A stretch of DNA of 64,000 nucleotides from Argonema antarcticum A004/B2 (GTDB lineage Bacteria; Cyanobacteriota; Cyanobacteriia; Cyanobacteriales; Aerosakkonemataceae): assembly GCF_023333585.1 (NCBI RefSeq), contig NZ_JAIQZN010000016.1, positions 1 through 64,000 of the forward strand, written 5' to 3'. Numbering within the stretch: position 1 is the first letter of the stretch; every line of letters starts with the position of its first letter. Of this stretch, positions 3,982 to 61,071 are shown one piece after another. Position numbers and translations under genes: made by a program. The notes beneath the pieces are model-generated. The model was not told the DNA's origin. It made no database searches and saw nothing but the letters and a program-made list of their open reading frames with translations.

Positions 3982-4088
3982 TTAAATTTCAGATTTTAGA
4001 TTTTAGATTTGAAATCTGAAATTCTTCCCTCTTCCCCCTAGCCCCTAGCCCTATTTGCTTTTGACTTTTGACTTTTGACTTTTGACTT
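3982..4088. repeat. Three STRR families in tandem
   Basis: Units of AGATTTT, CCCTAGC and GACTTTT follow each other between the convergent protease and sdhB genes. The last array runs up to the sdhB stop codon. Confidence 0.85.
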
Positions 4089-5117
4089 TTATAGCCCCTT
4101 CTTCCCTTCCAGTTGTTGAACGGATTCGATTAGCGATCGCACTTCTTCTACACCACCAGAAGGTTCAAATCCCAGGGGAAATTTGCCTTTTAGGAGCATC
4201 CGCAATCCCAGAGGCCCCAGGCTAATCAGTCCTTTTATATCCCTAAAATAGTTACCGACTACTTGCAAACCAAATTTACGTTCGTCAATCCAGCCGCCTT
4301 CTTTAACTAGATCCACTAATACCTTACGATGGCGAATCGATCGACTGGCTTGGGCGTCCTGGAGAGCCAGAATTTCACTTTTAATTTCGCCAATTCGATC
4401 CATCGGTGCTACATCCATAGGACAAACCGCATTGCAATAAAAGCACCGGGTACAGCCCCACACTCCCTGAGTGCCTTGGTTATATTTTTCCAAACGGGTT
4501 TCGGTTTGGGCATCGCGAGAATCAGCTACCATCCGATAAGCTTTCGCTAGGGCGTGAGGGCCGACAAATTCTGGGTTAACTTCACGGGCGTTACATTCGG
4601 AATAACAAGCGCCGCAAAGTATACAATTTCCAGTTTGATCGAGTTGCGATCGCTCTGCGGGGGTTTGCAGAAACTCCCGTTCCGGGACTTGTCTAGCAGC
4701 AGTACTAATATAAGGATCGACTGCCTCCAGATTGTCCCAGAAACTTTGCATATCCACCACCAAATCCTTGATGATCGGCATATTGCCCATTGGTGCGATC
4801 GTCATTTCCAGAACCGATTCTGACGAACTAAGAGCAGCATCTGAATTGGACGTGGAAGCCATCTGTTGCAGCCGAGCCACTTCGTTACCTATATTTTCCT
4901 TACAAGCCAGAGCCGATCGACCGTTAATCCGCATAGAGCAACTGCCGCAAATCGTATTGCGGCAATTTTTCCGAAAAGCTAAACTTCCATCTTGTTCCCA
5001 CTTGATGCGATTCAGGCAATCTAGAATTGTGTTACCAGGTTCAACATCCAGCTGATAAGTCTGAAAGCGGGGGCTGGTATTTTGGCTCTGTCTGACAATT
5101 TTAAAACTAACTTGCAT
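4089..5117 (-). CDS. sdhB: Succinate dehydrogenase/fumarate reductase iron-sulfur subunit
   Basis: This is the electron-transfer subunit that passes electrons from succinate oxidation to quinone. The [2Fe-2S] ligands are Cys-52, -57, -60 and -72 (CRNTICGSC...C). The C-terminal ferredoxin domain holds two further clusters: Cys-165/168/171/175 (CILCGACYSEC) and Cys-222/225/228/232 (CTRCFYCNAVCP). At 342 residues it is longer than the E. coli protein (about 240), as is usual for cyanobacterial SdhB, with an extended C-terminus. No sdhA or membrane anchor gene is adjacent, in line with scattered sdh genes in cyanobacteria. Confidence 0.93.
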   Translation of the reverse strand: MQVSFKIVRQSQNTSPRFQTYQLDVEPGNTILDCLNRIKWEQDGSLAFRKNCRNTICGSCSMRINGRSALACKENIGNEVARLQQMASTSNSDAALSSSESVLEMTIAPMGNMPIIKDLVVDMQSFWDNLEAVDPYISTAARQVPEREFLQTPAERSQLDQTGNCILCGACYSECNAREVNPEFVGPHALAKAYRMVADSRDAQTETRLEKYNQGTQGVWGCTRCFYCNAVCPMDVAPMDRIGEIKSEILALQDAQASRSIRHRKVLVDLVKEGGWIDERKFGLQVVGNYFRDIKGLISLGPLGLRMLLKGKFPLGFEPSGGVEEVRSLIESVQQLEGKKGL

Positions 5118-26405: not shown

Positions 26406-26532
26406 AAGACTTACGCACCCTATCAAAGGTGTAGGGGCGGGTTTTGTTGAGAGATTATTGATTTGACACAGGGGTTATCTGCTAAACCCGCCCCTACAAT
26501 CCTTGATTTTTCCTAATTTTGCGTAAGTCCTA
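26406..26532. repeat. MITE-like element with GACTTACGCA ends, copy 1
   Basis: The ends AAGACTTACGCA and TGCGTAAGTCCT are inverted copies. An inner pair, GTAGGGGCGGGTTTTGTT and AAACCCGCCCCTAC, forms a second stem. The same ends occur at 48462-48573 and 52927-52978. Confidence 0.75.
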
Positions 26533-47713: not shown

Positions 47714-48436
47714 TTATTCATTTGACATTTTAACTTTTGATTGCTCAAAAGCAACTTTTGCAGCAGCTTGTTCGGCTGCTTTTTTCGATCCTCCTTTTCC
47801 GGTTCCCCAAGTTTGTCCCAGTACTTTGACAACTGCGGTAAACATTTGTAGATTACCTCGAATTGGCTTCATTTCCTTAACTTCATATTCGGGTAAAACC
47901 TTGTAGTAGCTCTGGGTAAGTTCCTGGAGTGCTGCTTTATAATTGCGACGGGCTGGGTCGCTGCGAATTTCTGCGGCTAATTGTTTAAAGTGGGTAGCTA
48001 ACCAGGGTAGCACTAATTCCAAAGTGTGTGTACTTAGGTAGAGAGCGCCCAACACAGCTTCTAAAGCGTCTGCCAGCCTAGTTTCCCGTCCGGCAATGTC
48101 TCCTGCCGCACTCCGATCGAGCAGTAGGTATGCTTCTAATCCATAACTATCGGCTATTTGTGCCAGGATGCGATCGCTCACCAATTCCGCCCGAATCCCC
48201 GAAAACTCACCTACACTACAGTCGGGATAAGTTTCCCATAAAAATTCTGCTGCTGCCAGCCGCACCACGGCATCTCCCACAAACTCTAGCTGTTCGTAGT
48301 TAGCCTCAGCCGAAAAAGTCGGATGAGTTAGCGCCAAGTCCAGTAGGTGCCACTCAACAGGCACTTTTTCAGGTAGTCCAAGCTTTTGCAGCAAGCTTTG
48401 GAGTTGCTTTTGACGGCGGGGATAAGTGAGATTCAT
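47714..48436 (-). CDS. rnc: Ribonuclease III
   Basis: RNase III cuts double-stranded RNA in rRNA maturation and mRNA decay. The catalytic signature is YEQLEFVGDAV (residues 47-57, with Glu-51 and Asp-55), and a second acidic cluster lies in RLADALEAVLGALYLS. A double-stranded RNA-binding domain occupies the C-terminal ~70 residues (YKAALQELTQ, KGGSKKAAEQAAAKVAF). The length, 240 residues, is normal. rnpB, another RNA-processing gene, lies directly upstream on the same strand, separated by a palindromic repeat. Confidence 0.94.
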   Translation of the reverse strand: MNLTYPRRQKQLQSLLQKLGLPEKVPVEWHLLDLALTHPTFSAEANYEQLEFVGDAVVRLAAAEFLWETYPDCSVGEFSGIRAELVSDRILAQIADSYGLEAYLLLDRSAAGDIAGRETRLADALEAVLGALYLSTHTLELVLPWLATHFKQLAAEIRSDPARRNYKAALQELTQSYYKVLPEYEVKEMKPIRGNLQMFTAVVKVLGQTWGTGKGGSKKAAEQAAAKVAFEQSKVKMSNE

Positions 48437-48461
48437 GGAAGTTAGGCCGATTTCTTTAAAA

Positions 48462-48573
48462 AAGACTTACGCTTTTCGCCCCCCTAGCCCCCCAAATCTG
48501 GGGGGAACAGGACTCTTCTCCCCCCAGTTTTGGGGGGTCGGGGGGGCAAAACCAAGGTTTTTGCGTAAGTCCT
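48462..48573. repeat. MITE-like element with GACTTACGCA ends, copy 2
   Basis: Ends AAGACTTACGC and TTGCGTAAGTCCTG are inverted copies; the centre holds CCCCCC/GGGGGG stems. It lies between rnc and rnpB, just past the rnpB 3' end, and may serve as its terminator. Confidence 0.75.
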
Positions 48574-48595
48574 GTTTAAAAAAGAAAAGAGAGGA

Positions 48596-49020
48596 AGAGA
48601 GTCGGACATAAGCCGGGTTCTGTTTTCAAGGCCCACGTGGAGCTTTGAAGGCGGTTATCTATCTGGGACGCCTGTTACCAGACGCCTCTAGCGGTACACA
48701 ATAAGCGGAACGGGTAAAAGACCAACCGTAGTTCCTCCGACCTTGCTCCCAACCGGGGTTTACCGAGCCAACGCCTCTCGACGCTGCTGGTGCGCTCTTA
48801 CCGCACCTTTGCACCCTTACCCCTAGCAAATCAAAAGTAAAAAGTTTTATTTTTGACTTTTGACTTTTGACTTTTGACTTTCTAGGGGCGGTATCTTTCT
48901 GTGGCACTATCCTCACGGTCACCCGCACTGGGCGTTATCCAGCAAGTTTGGTCTTTCGGGAGCCCGGACTTTCCTCAGACTAGCTTTCGCTAGCCCGCAA
49001 CTGCCTGCGCCTACTCTCTC
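48596..49020 (-). ncRNA. rnpB: RNase P RNA
   Basis: The RNA subunit of RNase P, which removes tRNA 5' leaders. Read on the minus strand, the 5' end AGAGAGTAGGCGCAGGCAG pairs with the 3' GACTCTCT (P1). The invariant GAGGAAAGTCCGGGCTCCC follows, and further downstream are the family segments CAGTGCGGGTGACC, GGTAAACCCCGG, and the 3' region AGAACCCGGCTTATGTCC. Its length is about 425 nt. A helix closed by CCCCTAG/CTAGGGG (P12-like) carries an STRR in its loop at about 48852-48881. Confidence 0.95.
48852..48881. repeat. STRR inside rnpB
   Basis: Four units of GACTTTT on the plus strand (AAAAGTC in the RNA) lie in the distal loop of a P12-like helix. The same units occur in intergenic arrays at 4062 and 58553. 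Confidence 0.85.
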
Positions 49021-49112
49021 CCCTTATCATTTTAGATTGTGAATTTTAGATTTTAGATTTTAGATTAGGAATTTGGATATGGGGCAGAGAGGATGAGATC
49101 TGTTTGTTTTTC

Positions 49113-51407
49113 TCAGTTGCGATCTTCTTCTTCTATAGCTTTGTAAAGAGCCTCTGCTTTTTGCCGATCGACGATCGCACCCTTATCGTCTCCTAAACGA
49201 CGACGAATTTCGCTCCGCAGGTCATAGGCATCAGGCTGGTTTGGATTTAGCTCGATCGCATAGTTCGCATCGGTAAGGGCACCTTTGTAGTCCTGTAGCC
49301 GCTCACGAGCGTATCCGCGAGCGAGGTAAGCCGAGATGTTTTTGGAATCCAATTTGATAATTTCGCTATAATCTGCGATCGCACCTTTGTAGTCCTTTAA
49401 CATATTACGCATTTGTGCCCGTCTGCGATAGATCTTGATATCTTTGGGGTTGAGACGCAAAAGATAGTCGTAATCTTGATTCGCACCTTTATAGTCTCGT
49501 AACCTAGCACGAAGGCTAGCACGGCTAAGGCGATATCCAATGTCGTTGGGTTTTAAGCGTACAAGGTGATCGTAATCTGCCATAGCTCCCCGATCGTCAC
49601 GCAGCCACATCCGCGCCCGCGATCGCTTAACATAAGCATTGATATCATTCGGATTTAAGCGCAAAGCTTCGGTTGCCTGCTCAACTTCTCTTTTTTTAGC
49701 TTCCGTTGCCCGTTTTCGTAATTTTTGCGGATTTTGAAACGAGTAAGAGATTATTCTAGCCCAATTAGGCGCGATCGCTTGAAGAGTGCCGATCGTACCT
49801 CCGAATAAGCTGACAAAGTAAAGCATTACCAGCAATACTATTGTTGTCCGCTTGGCACCGGATTCGTGGTGACGTTGGATTAAATCTTTCGCCAGTACAT
49901 ATCTCTTGCTAAAGGGCAAATTTCCGTAGCCCATCTGCTTCAGATTCTGGAAGATAGAATACAGAAGATTTTCTCGATTTTCAGGTGGGTTTTGCCGGAG
50001 TTCCTTCCGCAACCACGAATTCACTTTGGCACTGCGGAAACTATTTGGAATACTCAAAGATATCAAGATAGCGAATAACAACAACATCGGTTGACCGATA
50101 CCAAGCAATCCCAAGATAATGACACCAAATACCTTGAAAATTACGCCAATGTAAGGATGGCGAGAAAACAATAGCAGGTCGGCAATTTGTCCGCCATCAA
50201 GCGGGTAAACTGGGAGCAGATTAAACAGGTTAAGACCAATCAGTATCCAGCTAGCTTGTTGCACCCAACCAGGATAGCTACCGTCACGAGACGCGATCGC
50301 TAATCCCATCCCAAGAATCAACCCAGGCAAAGGCCCTGCCAGCAATATCCAAAACTTTTGAGTGAGTGTCGCGTCTTCTTTGCGAGCAGTTGCTACAGCA
50401 CCCAGAAACGGTAGGAAGAGGAGAGAAGTATCTTGATAGCCGAAAAGTTTCATCGACAACAAGTGTCCGCTTTCATGGAACAACAGTGCGCCCATAAAGA
50501 TTGCGAAACTTTGCAGAGAAAAAAGTTTCATATAGCTAGCGATAAACAACGCCAGACTGCCTAGTAGCAGCCAAGTGCGTAATTTTTTGTTAACAATTCC
50601 CTGCTGCAATTGTTCCATACGCTGAAATCCCTCAACTTCCAGTTCTACGGGGATTTCAACCTGGATAGTTGAATCTGTTTTGGCTTGTTGTCTGCGTTGC
50701 TTGATGATACCTGCTGCCTTCGATCCACCCTGTATTGTCTTGTGGGATGTTTTTAACGCTGTCAACCAATCGATCTGAAATAATTCTGCTTCCTTGATTG
50801 GCGATATATTACCTGCCTTTGCCAAACAATCAATGTAATCTTTAATAAATATCTGTAGCGTCTTGGCAAAAGTATCTGGTGCTAAATTACAGGGCGTTTT
50901 GGTTGCCGCTAATTGATTTAATTTATCTTGGTGAGCTTGCCATTGCACCGATGTTTTATCTGTATAACGATCTTCGATAATGAAGTTAGGAATCTCACCT
51001 ATAATGCCATACGCCTTACCGTTCATGGTAAGCAACAAACTTCTGTCTTCAAAGAAGGTGAAGAACTCAATGTCAAACAAATTGACAGGCTCAGCCGGAC
51101 GACGAATGGAGACTATCGCATAGGTTTTGAGCGTTTCATTATACAGCAATATCTGCCAACTTGTGGGAGGGTAAACCTTTACTATTGACTCAACCTGCAA
51201 ATAGCTGCATGGTTTGAAATCCAATTGTTCTAGCTCTCTAATTGGAGTTTGAAATAACTCTTTGAGGTAAGTAGGAACTTTGTCAGCTTTTTGAAGCTCG
51301 TACTTTGGGTATTGGACTGGTAACTTGCGAATCTGCAAAAATGTGATGAGATAGCGGATCACATACAGCAGTGCATAGATAGCGATCGGGTAGAGCAGGT
51401 ATTGCAT
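49113..51407 (-). CDS. Site-2 protease (M50) with C-terminal TPR array
   Basis: A 764-residue membrane protein. The first ~260 residues contain an N-terminal membrane helix and a soluble domain I do not recognise. The M50 core has the zinc motif HESGH (near residue 307; HExxH) in FHESGHLLSMKLFGYQD and the second motif PLDGGQ (near 397), with several membrane helices. The C-terminal ~180 residues form about five tetratricopeptide repeats (for example ALRLNPNDINAYVKRS, KLDSKNISAYLARGYA), possibly to dock a substrate or partner. Site-2 proteases cleave membrane-bound regulators such as anti-sigma factors; the target is unknown. Confidence 0.86.
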   Translation of the reverse strand: MQYLLYPIAIYALLYVIRYLITFLQIRKLPVQYPKYELQKADKVPTYLKELFQTPIRELEQLDFKPCSYLQVESIVKVYPPTSWQILLYNETLKTYAIVSIRRPAEPVNLFDIEFFTFFEDRSLLLTMNGKAYGIIGEIPNFIIEDRYTDKTSVQWQAHQDKLNQLAATKTPCNLAPDTFAKTLQIFIKDYIDCLAKAGNISPIKEAELFQIDWLTALKTSHKTIQGGSKAAGIIKQRRQQAKTDSTIQVEIPVELEVEGFQRMEQLQQGIVNKKLRTWLLLGSLALFIASYMKLFSLQSFAIFMGALLFHESGHLLSMKLFGYQDTSLLFLPFLGAVATARKEDATLTQKFWILLAGPLPGLILGMGLAIASRDGSYPGWVQQASWILIGLNLFNLLPVYPLDGGQIADLLLFSRHPYIGVIFKVFGVIILGLLGIGQPMLLLFAILISLSIPNSFRSAKVNSWLRKELRQNPPENRENLLYSIFQNLKQMGYGNLPFSKRYVLAKDLIQRHHESGAKRTTIVLLVMLYFVSLFGGTIGTLQAIAPNWARIISYSFQNPQKLRKRATEAKKREVEQATEALRLNPNDINAYVKRSRARMWLRDDRGAMADYDHLVRLKPNDIGYRLSRASLRARLRDYKGANQDYDYLLRLNPKDIKIYRRRAQMRNMLKDYKGAIADYSEIIKLDSKNISAYLARGYARERLQDYKGALTDANYAIELNPNQPDAYDLRSEIRRRLGDDKGAIVDRQKAEALYKAIEEEDRN

Positions 51408-52926: not shown

Positions 52927-52978
52927 CAGGACTTACGCAGAAAGCCCCCAGAGTTGGGGGCTTTCTGCGTAAGTCCTG
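52927..52978. repeat. Perfect 52-bp palindrome, GACTTACGCA family
   Basis: Two perfect 24-nt arms starting CAGGACTTACGCAGAAAG and separated by GAGT. Its ends match those of the elements at 26406 and 48462. Confidence 0.88.
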
Positions 52979-58387: not shown

Positions 58388-58603
58388 GGATTGGTCAGTG
58401 GTCAGTGGTCAGTGGTCAGTTGTCATTGGTCAGTGGTCGGTGGTCATTGGTCAGTTGTCATTGGTCATTCTCCCCCACTCTCCCACTCTTCCCATCTTCC
58501 TCTAGCCCCTAGTCCCTAGCCCCTAGCCCCTCGCAAGAGCCCCTATTTTCTTTTGACTTTTGACTTTTGACTTTTGACTTTTGACTTCCCTAGTCCCTAG
58601 TCC
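58388..58603. repeat. STRR-rich spacer (GTCAGTG, CCCTAGT, GACTTTT)
   Basis: Three different heptamer arrays in sequence: GTCAGTG/GTCATTG at 58388-58470, CCCTAGC/CCCTAGT near 58500-58530, and GACTTTT near 58553-58587, ending just before fabG. The groEL promoter must lie in or beside the first array. Confidence 0.85.
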
Positions 58604-59815: not shown

Positions 59816-59991
59816 GTAAATCTGAAATCAAATAACCCACCTGGTTCGATCGAATTAGTTGGGTTATTTCATCGGTCATCGATCATTGGTAGGAAGTTGA
59901 GAGGGAAGGGCGATCGCATATAATAAAAATATCTTCAGCCAATACTAGAGATAATCAAAAATTAGATATTTCAGAAATAGGAGAATTAAAA

Positions 59992-60309
59992 ATGACCGAA
60001 ACAAAACCTACTCGCACGGTGCGTCGAGGCAGAATATTCCCAGAAATTCAGTGGTCAGAAGAAAAAAAGGCGCAGTGGAAAGCAGAAATGGCAGCAACTC
60101 GTCACCGTTGCCAAGTTATTTTTGAAAAAGTCAAGCCAGGGGTAATCAAAACTCACTATAACTATTTTATGGCGATCGATCCAGATAGCGAAGACTATTT
60201 TATTGACAAAAATGAAGAAGTAGCTACACAGATGGCTCGCAAAAAAAACCAGAATGCTATTCCATATATTTTCGTTATTAATGAAACAGGAGTAGCTGGC
60301 AGAATATGA
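59992..60309 (+). CDS. 105-residue unknown protein, module copy B (partner lost)
   Basis: A paralogue of the protein at 55828-56145 (TRTVRRGRIFPEIQWSEEKK; HYNYFMAIDPDSEDYFIDKN; VINETGVAGRI). It is the most diverged of the plus-strand copies. GGAGAA lies 8 nt before the start. The ATGA junction is still there, but the downstream reading frame keeps only a few codons of the protease start (MIQG) before switching to the leader of the next unit, so the protease gene has been deleted. Confidence 0.72.
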   Translation: MTETKPTRTVRRGRIFPEIQWSEEKKAQWKAEMAATRHRCQVIFEKVKPGVIKTHYNYFMAIDPDSEDYFIDKNEEVATQMARKKNQNAIPYIFVINETGVAGRI

Positions 60310-60385
60310 TCCAAGGCAATCACTATCTTCAGCCAATAGCAGAGTTAATTGAAAATTAGATATTTCAGAGATAGGAGAATCAAAA
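60306..60385 (+). pseudogene. Vestige of aspartic protease start fused to next leader
   Basis: ATGATCCAAGGCAA resembles the protease start ATGATCCACGGCAAATTT of the next unit; it then passes straight into TTCAGCCAATAGC..., the leader sequence found before the other module copies. I read this as the scar of a deletion by recombination between repeats. Confidence 0.6.
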
Positions 60386-60703
60386 ATGACTGAAACAAAA
60401 CCTACTCGCATCGTCCGCCGAGGCAGAATATTCCCAGAAATCCAGTGGTCAGAAGAAAAGAAGGCGCAGTGGAAAGCCGAACAAGAGGCATTTCATAAGC
60501 GCTGTAAAGTGGTTTTCGATCGCGTTCAACCCGAACTGATTAAAACTCATTACAACTGGTATATAGCGGTTGAACCTGATAGTGGAGAATATTTCCTCGA
60601 TCGCGATATAGAAATAGCTACACAAATGGCGCGTCATAAACACCCAAATGCCATCCCGTTTCTATTCCGAATTAATGAAACGGGAGCTTGTGGTACGATA
60701 TGA
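60386..60703 (+). CDS. 105-residue unknown protein, module copy C
   Basis: A paralogue with the same layout as copy A (basic N-terminus, helix KAEQEAFHKRCKVVFDRV, THYNWYIAVEPDSGEYFLDRD, RINETGACGTI). Its N-terminal 45 residues are nearly identical to copy D, indicating recent duplication or conversion. It overlaps the protease gene downstream as ATGA. Function is not recognised. Confidence 0.75.
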   Translation: MTETKPTRIVRRGRIFPEIQWSEEKKAQWKAEQEAFHKRCKVVFDRVQPELIKTHYNWYIAVEPDSGEYFLDRDIEIATQMARHKHPNAIPFLFRINETGACGTI

Positions 60704-61071
60704 TCCACGGCAAATTTGGCGATAATGATGAGTTATTTTTTGAAATAGAGTTGATTGATGATGAGCAATTAGAATTGCCAGTTGATGCCATGCTAGATAC
60801 TGGATTCTCAGGTTGGTTAGCTATTGAGAAACAAGATTTAGAGGGACTCGGTTGGTTTTATGTTCGCAAGGAATTGATGCGGTTAGCACAAGGAGGAGAT
60901 TCAGAGTTCGATCTCTATGCGGGAAAAGTACGAATAGATGGAGAAGAGTTTGATATTCCCGTTCATGTTGGGGATGGAGTTCCCGAAATTTTAATCGGTC
61001 GTCAATGGTTGAAAAGTCGGCGGTTAGTGGTGGATATGCAGTCGAATGTTTTGACTTTGGGAGGAAGTTGA
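60700..61071 (+). CDS. Retropepsin-like aspartic protease, copy C
   Basis: 123 residues from ATG 60700, coupled to the preceding stop. DTG motif in VDAMLDTGFSGWLAIEKQD; VHVGDGVPEILIGRQWLKSR near the end; the last 40 residues are practically identical to copy D. A single-lobe protease that should act as a dimer. The upstream start at 60688 would add four residues and is less likely given the ATGA arrangement. Confidence 0.82.
   Translation: MIHGKFGDNDELFFEIELIDDEQLELPVDAMLDTGFSGWLAIEKQDLEGLGWFYVRKELMRLAQGGDSEFDLYAGKVRIDGEEFDIPVHVGDGVPEILIGRQWLKSRRLVVDMQSNVLTLGGS

Follow-up and report, generated by a model that had tools for sequence, protein, structure and literature searches.

Heptanucleotide repeats in helix P12 of the RNase P RNA of a probably non-heterocystous cyanobacterium and of many other members of its class

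Introduction

How do tandem heptanucleotide repeats come to lie within the gene of a catalytic RNA, and is their presence there tied to the formation of heterocysts? These questions are raised by the gene for the RNA component (rnpB) of RNase P, the enzyme that trims tRNAs, in the 64,000-nucleotide stretch of Argonema antarcticum A004/B2 analyzed here (contig NZ_JAIQZN010000016.1, positions 1 to 64,000; hereafter the window). STRRs within rnpB were reportedly present in all heterocystous strains tested and in none of the others, and are said to lengthen helix P12, to be unrelated in sequence in related strains and to be unneeded for activity in vitro; by the same account, they seem to be recent, independent invaders. 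Helix P12 is described as sometimes dispensable, as in cyanobacteria, in a passage of a later article (PMC2858038, citing Vioque 1997). The observations presented below are quite probably best explained by P12 being a tolerant outer helix, in which slippage-prone heptads would repeatedly expand or be replaced, mostly as hairpins that close.

The rnpB Gene and Its P12 Hairpin

The RNase P RNA that had been read at 48596-49020 in an initial annotation of the sequence was recovered by the Rfam model RF00010 with coordinates at most three bases off. The match lies on the minus strand (rnpB, 49017-48594), covers model positions 1-367 of 367 and scores 248.9 bits (E-value 7.4e-80; gathering score 100). 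Class A RNase P RNA, whose model of sequence and structure is thereby matched over its full length, was the sole Rfam family over its gathering threshold in the window, and a single RF00010 match exists in the whole genome (G000, 7.74 Mb), in keeping with one gene per genome. The Rfam/Infernal analysis, which the annotation had itself proposed, also aligned the insert in the P12 hairpin and so bore out the P12-like stem suggested there. The locus thus appears to encode an RNase P RNA that looks functional and in which heptanucleotide repeats have come to make up the outer helix P12.

Infernal alignment and folding place the P12 region (ACCGCC...GGGGT) at 48819-48892 on the minus strand, on which all elements of the helix are read. 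From 48892 to 48819 it consists of ACCGCCCCTAG, followed by (GTCAAAA)n and a degenerate complement that terminates in CTAGGGGT. The heptad array, (GTCAAAA)n in the RNA and TTTTGAC on the plus strand, occupies 48851-48881 and was delimited by exact 14-mer matches and by Tandem Repeats Finder (period 7, 4.4 copies, 100% perfect). The predicted fold is a single hairpin in which 25 pairs are interrupted by two single mismatches (-29.6 kcal/mol; z -7.6 relative to dinucleotide shuffles). In this structure, the proximal strand CTAGGGGT (48819-48826) pairs with GCCCCTAG at 48882-48889, and the 5' arm of the distal stem, which is built of heptads (48881-48863), pairs with the 3' arm (48845-48827), whose degenerate complement of the heptads reads ACTTTTTACTTTTGATTTG in the RNA. 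Both the minimum-energy and the centroid structure leave a terminal loop of 17 nt (48862-48846), the first part of which still consists of heptads. The placement of the repeats in the loop, as initially annotated, is therefore right only in part, because in the predicted fold they begin in the 5' arm and then enter the loop: of the 31 repeat bases, about 19 pair within the arm, which leaves 12 for the loop.

Heptad Arrays Elsewhere in the Window

The 14-mer TTTTGACTTTTGAC occurs at 48851-48878 within rnpB and in arrays at 4059-4086 and 58551-58585, and is absent from the rest of the window. Its 10 matches compare with none in 100 dinucleotide shuffles, and a chance origin of the shared heptad was rejected on these grounds. 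The initial reading that the units in rnpB are identical to those of intergenic arrays is thereby upheld. As delimited by Tandem Repeats Finder, a lag-7 scan and the 14-mer, the two TTTTGAC arrays outside rnpB extend on the plus strand over 4051-4090, beside a CCCCTAG array, and over 58543-58587, beside TCCCTAG units. Altogether, 23 lag-7 arrays scoring at least 12 are present in the window, as against none in 20 mononucleotide shuffles. Most of them do not fold as hairpins: with 40-base flanks, the P12 array ranks first in hairpin strength (z -4.9) and only 2 of the 22 others reach -3.

The two structural hallmarks of STRR-bearing rnpB genes are thus found at this locus, namely tandem heptads in helix P12 and the same heptad arrayed elsewhere in the genome (the two arrays of the window and no fewer than 62 additional BLAST matches). 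In its short tandem heptads, which lengthen P12 from within the gene, the locus resembles the genes that Vioque is said to have described.

A different heptad array, of the CTAAAAT type, lies directly upstream of rnpB on the minus strand (49029-49077; Tandem Repeats Finder and lag-7 scan), where the promoter would be expected; no sigma-70 consensus site was found within positions 48400-49200 of the window. A stretch resembling this upstream array is also present in a second genome of the same genus (G002).

The Host Is Probably Not Heterocystous

The reported restriction to nitrogen-fixing, heterocyst-forming hosts is a claim about distribution rather than a structural feature, and neither nifH nor family places the present host within it. 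In the 99.93% complete genome, the best match to the nifH model scored 219 bits against a cut-off of 394 bits, and no match over the cut-off was therefore present. The family of the host (f1) also includes a genome (G003) that was taken to be Microseira wollei NIES-4236 on account of an identical P12, a species placed by NCBI in the Aerosakkonematales, Oscillatoriophycideae. By the same kind of identity, two further members of the family would be uncultured cyanobacterium PMM_0008 (G001) and Phormidium sp. LEGE 05292 (G008). The host is probably non-heterocystous because no nifH exceeds the cut-off and because its family is shared with Microseira wollei, which supports, as probable, the view of an Oscillatoriales-like organism that had been taken from the sequence at the outset. 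HetR is present in the host and in 35 of the 60 genomes searched; this protein occurs in many filamentous non-heterocystous forms. A literature search covering few subscription journals returned nothing linking the Aerosakkonemataceae with heterocysts and a genome. By the present findings, the supposed link of repeat-bearing RNase P RNA to heterocysts is removed.

Period-7 P12 Helices Across Cyanobacteria

P12 was extracted from 177 cyanobacterial rnpB genes, which derive from 56 of 60 relatives of the host and from 121 further genomes of the class. Genomes without an RF00010 match (3 of 60 and 4 of 135) and those with partial matches only (G019, G096, G099 and G130) were left out. Extracted lengths range from 16 to 138 nt. 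A P12 was called period-7 at a lag-7 score of 9 combined with p 0.01 in a shuffle test (300 shuffles), which was applied to 176 genes; the remaining one (G090) stands outside the statistics and was counted by eye on account of its GAAGGCA repeats. By this definition, a period-7 P12 is present in 43 of the 177 genes, 42 of which passed the test and one of which was assigned by eye, and these genes are spread over 21 of 57 families, while one gene with a score of 11 (G172) remained uncounted at p 0.017. In the latter genome, a partial rnpB match (model positions 104-213, 47.6 bits) was also seen at 605576-605684 on the plus strand of contig C6, in the opposite orientation to the adjoining full gene at 604982-605427.

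The periodicity is specific in length and position. P12 tips of at least 30 nt were present in 99 of the 176 tested genes and lag 7 reached score 9 in 43 of these, as compared with 0-2 genes for each of lags 3-6 and 8-12, 2 for lag 13 and 1 for lag 15; lag 14 did so in 33. The signal does not extend over rnpB at large: in the trimmed remainder of the gene outside P12, lag 7 reached this score in 1 of 177 genes, lag 6 in 14 and lag 12 in 4.

Period-7 helices were found in all 10 examined members of the host's family, in all 5 examined members of a second family (f33, perhaps the Nostocaceae) and in 1-4 members each of 19 other families. Of the 24 period-7 genomes within the set of 60 relatives, 18 lack a nifH match over the cut-off, whereas 6 possess one. 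In one of these 18 (G043), nifH is broken into two parts separated by about 2.5 kb (contig C49:158143-161456), as if interrupted by an element. Among 19 loci from named organisms, six or more of which come from genomes that are also numbered here, 11 reach the lag-7 score of 9, including those of two Calothrix MAGs, Microseira wollei, Phormidium sp. LEGE 05292, Gloeocapsopsis crepidinum and Lyngbya aestuarii; the 8 that do not include Planktothrix paucivesiculata, the P12 of which measures 16 nt. The initial suggestion that the trait might extend beyond the heterocystous strains consequently holds, given a probably non-heterocystous host and the count of genes and families.

On a tree of the rnpB core, which is weak at about 300 bases, the trait requires at least 24 changes, as compared with a mean of 39 (range 31-43) for shuffled labels, and called and not called helices coexist within three genera. 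The heptad P12 therefore appears to follow kinship in part and to change often. Gain or loss of heptads in an essential ribozyme is accordingly frequent over the cyanobacteria, and the length or sequence of P12 is a poor guide to kinship.

Turnover of P12 Between Close Relatives

The host and G001 belong to the same genus and their rnpB cores match at 98.7% of 306 columns, but the identity of their P12 helices in a gapped alignment is only 53%, the (GTCAAAA)n of the host standing against (GATTTTG)n with a near-perfect complement in G001. An assembly artefact was rejected, as G002 (core 99.7% identical to that of the host) has a P12 that is 100% identical. Similar differences were observed for G004 and G008 (core 97.4%, P12 46%) and for G161 and G182 (core 97.9%, P12 64%). 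Elsewhere, P12 is retained between close relatives (G003/G009, 98%; G003/G007 and G007/G009, 89%; G010/G041, 87%; G043/G161, 81%). Replacement does not, then, regularly accompany a split, which counts against a helix that is readily exchanged. Differences on a smaller scale are also found within genera: G007 carries one extra CCAATTA unit in one arm only as compared with G009, and heptad numbers in G103 and G157 are unequal in both arms. Growth by slippage is supported by such one-unit differences and exchange of the whole P12 by the within-genus pairs, as far as can be judged from sequence comparison. These pairs, with near-identical cores and different P12 helices, represent natural experiments on the tolerance of an RNA enzyme.

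Dispersed Copies and Possible Insertion as a Unit

Copies of the P12 sequences are numerous in the genus of the host. With the own site included where present, BLAST matches to the P12 of the host number at least 63 in its own genome, at least 51 in G001 and at least 55 in G002, and those to the P12 of G001 at least 92, 89 and 92, respectively. Many of the copies displayed are plain arrays and some are hairpins of similar build. As each of the three genomes is rich in either type of heptad, the heptad content of a genome did not predict the type found in its P12, i.e., this comparison did not discriminate, and a transfer from donor to recipient is left without support.

The dispersed hairpins raise the possibility that an element of this kind inserts into P12 as a unit, similar to MITE or REP elements, instead of growing by slippage. 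Hairpins of about 50-75 nt that are built like P12 do occur elsewhere in the host, G001 and G002, and two of the three with examined ORF context fill gaps between ORFs: in the host genome, a 51-nt copy of the host's hairpin (92%) occupies the 54 bp that separate a pair of convergent ORFs and a hairpin of the G001 type lies between two co-directional ORFs. The remaining one extends over the TTG start codon of a long ORF. The differences between the P12 helices of the host and G001 run throughout and include the proximal stem, as would be expected of such an insertion. However, in 18 copies inspected by eye, flanks differed and neither a common element end nor a target-site duplication was evident, and the unit-number differences in one arm, together with the non-complementary arms of G103, suggest that local growth takes place as well. 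Insertion of a dispersed hairpin as a unit thus appears rather unlikely.

Period-7 sequence is also found in another ribozyme. Group I intron matches in the genus of the host reach lag-7 scores of 12 (host and G001) and 24 (G002), and 7 of the 19 scanned in f1 and a few other families, out of 20 retrieved from 32 listed, reach a score of 9. These loci may be tRNA-Leu introns with the repeats in P6b; ARAGORN found no tRNA in five intron loci. The Nostoc tRNA-Leu (UAA) group I intron carries heptad repeats in its P6b stem-loop, where one class of repeats has been inferred to have taken the place of another time and again (PMC4476775). To this extent, Nostoc P6b and the P12 of the window are both outer stem-loops of ribozymes made of complementary 7-nt repeats, although the former belongs to a different RNA and to lichen-symbiotic Nostoc. 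A tentative extension, possible rather than probable, would be that outer helices of ribozymes (P12 of RNase P RNA, P6b of group I introns) and dispersed hairpins share one fast-moving pool of heptads, which are exchanged as cassettes. If true, an essential catalytic RNA would change a helix of 75-90 nt between congeneric species while its core remains about 99% identical.

Pairing of the P12 Arms and Possible Cleavage

Heptad P12 helices are long hairpins as a rule. In the predicted structures, the median stem comprises 27 pairs with heptads as compared with 10 in helices not called, and at least 20 pairs are reached by 42 of 43 heptad P12s but by only 22 of 134 without called heptads; the stem of G001 extends to 41 pairs with one mismatch. 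Against mononucleotide shuffles, 33 of the 43 heptad helices fold with z below -3 (median -4.6) and 10 miss this value. The own 3' arm outperforms every arm from other families in 18 of 43 cases, and the median share of foreign arms that pair equally well is 2.4%. An exception is G103, whose long heptad arms hardly pair (z +2.5). Complementarity of the arms is therefore, by these folding models, usually but not always kept.

In view of stems of this length, the P12 hairpin might be cut by RNase III, so that the working RNase P RNA would consist of two pieces that remain paired, comparable to rRNAs with intervening sequences. An RNase III gene (47714-48436, minus strand; Pfam) adjoins rnpB directly downstream on the same strand. 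Among the 50 loci examined, 32 likewise have an RNase III motif behind rnpB in the same orientation, which in 30 of them lies within 1 kb. This neighborhood is nevertheless uninformative as to the substrate, since the motif also follows rnpB genes without heptads (G021, G048 and G034 are examples); stems of at least 20 pairs likewise occur without called heptads, as counted above, and internal mismatches interrupt many P12 stems. Cleavage by RNase III is accordingly considered improbable. Retention of the heptad arm as a platform for a sequence-specific RNA-binding protein with a regulatory role, for which the presence of heptads in all 10 examined members of f1 and the period-7 runs in group I introns of the genus could be cited, is most improbable in view of heptad sequences that are unrelated between some close relatives and of the 134 of 177 genes in which heptads are not called.

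P12 as a Probably Tolerant Outer Helix

The preferred reading remains that of a tolerant helix in which heptads expand or are replaced. P12 would tolerate many different hairpins provided that a conserved base, usually GCC/GGT, closes. Heptad arrays would alter their length in whole units of seven bases, and dozens of them are scattered through these genomes; given the tolerance of P12, they would be able to expand there or be swapped in. Variants with complementary arms would mostly persist, as such arms would leave the catalytic core undisturbed. At the level of DNA, the putative route comprises slippage and recombination or template switching with other copies, and a new heptad P12 may be initiated either by slippage growth or by exchange of the whole helix. 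The heptads would then recur as mostly neutral passengers in a permissive helix and bear no relation to heterocysts. In the present species, P12 may well be neutral, to judge from the in vitro result reportedly obtained with other species. Against this reading, the presence of heptads in every examined member of f1 (10) and of f33 (5) might point to some benefit.

That STRRs occur in P12 is already known; added here are the host range, the confinement to P12 over 177 genes and the differences of the whole P12 between cores that are about 97-99% identical. The genes thus depart from the STRR-bearing rnpB genes as reportedly described in a host that is probably non-heterocystous and whose best nifH match lies below the cut-off, in a spread over 21 of 57 families and in whole-P12 differences within one genus. 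A literature search found no titles on heptad P12 helices in non-heterocystous cyanobacteria, which is weak evidence as most subscription journals lay outside its coverage. Heptad arrays outside structured RNAs are known from Nostoc (GGGGA(C/T)T; PMC4692102) and from Beggiatoaceae and some cyanobacteria (TAACTGA; PMC4679880). In the available excerpts of these reports, such arrays resemble those of the window in their 7-nt length, tandem arrangement, mostly intergenic location and several sequence classes, but are not described within a ribozyme.

Additional Features of the Window

Three short, MITE-like stretches with inverted ends of the AGGACTTACGCA type were observed at 48462-48573, 26406-26531 and 52928-52977, one of which is situated between rnpB and the RNase III gene. 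Ends of this type occur at six sites with at most one mismatch, as compared with 0.27 expected; the left end at 48462 was found by eye. In addition, a tandem duplication at 59930-60713 comprises two copies of a 394-bp unit with 76% identity.
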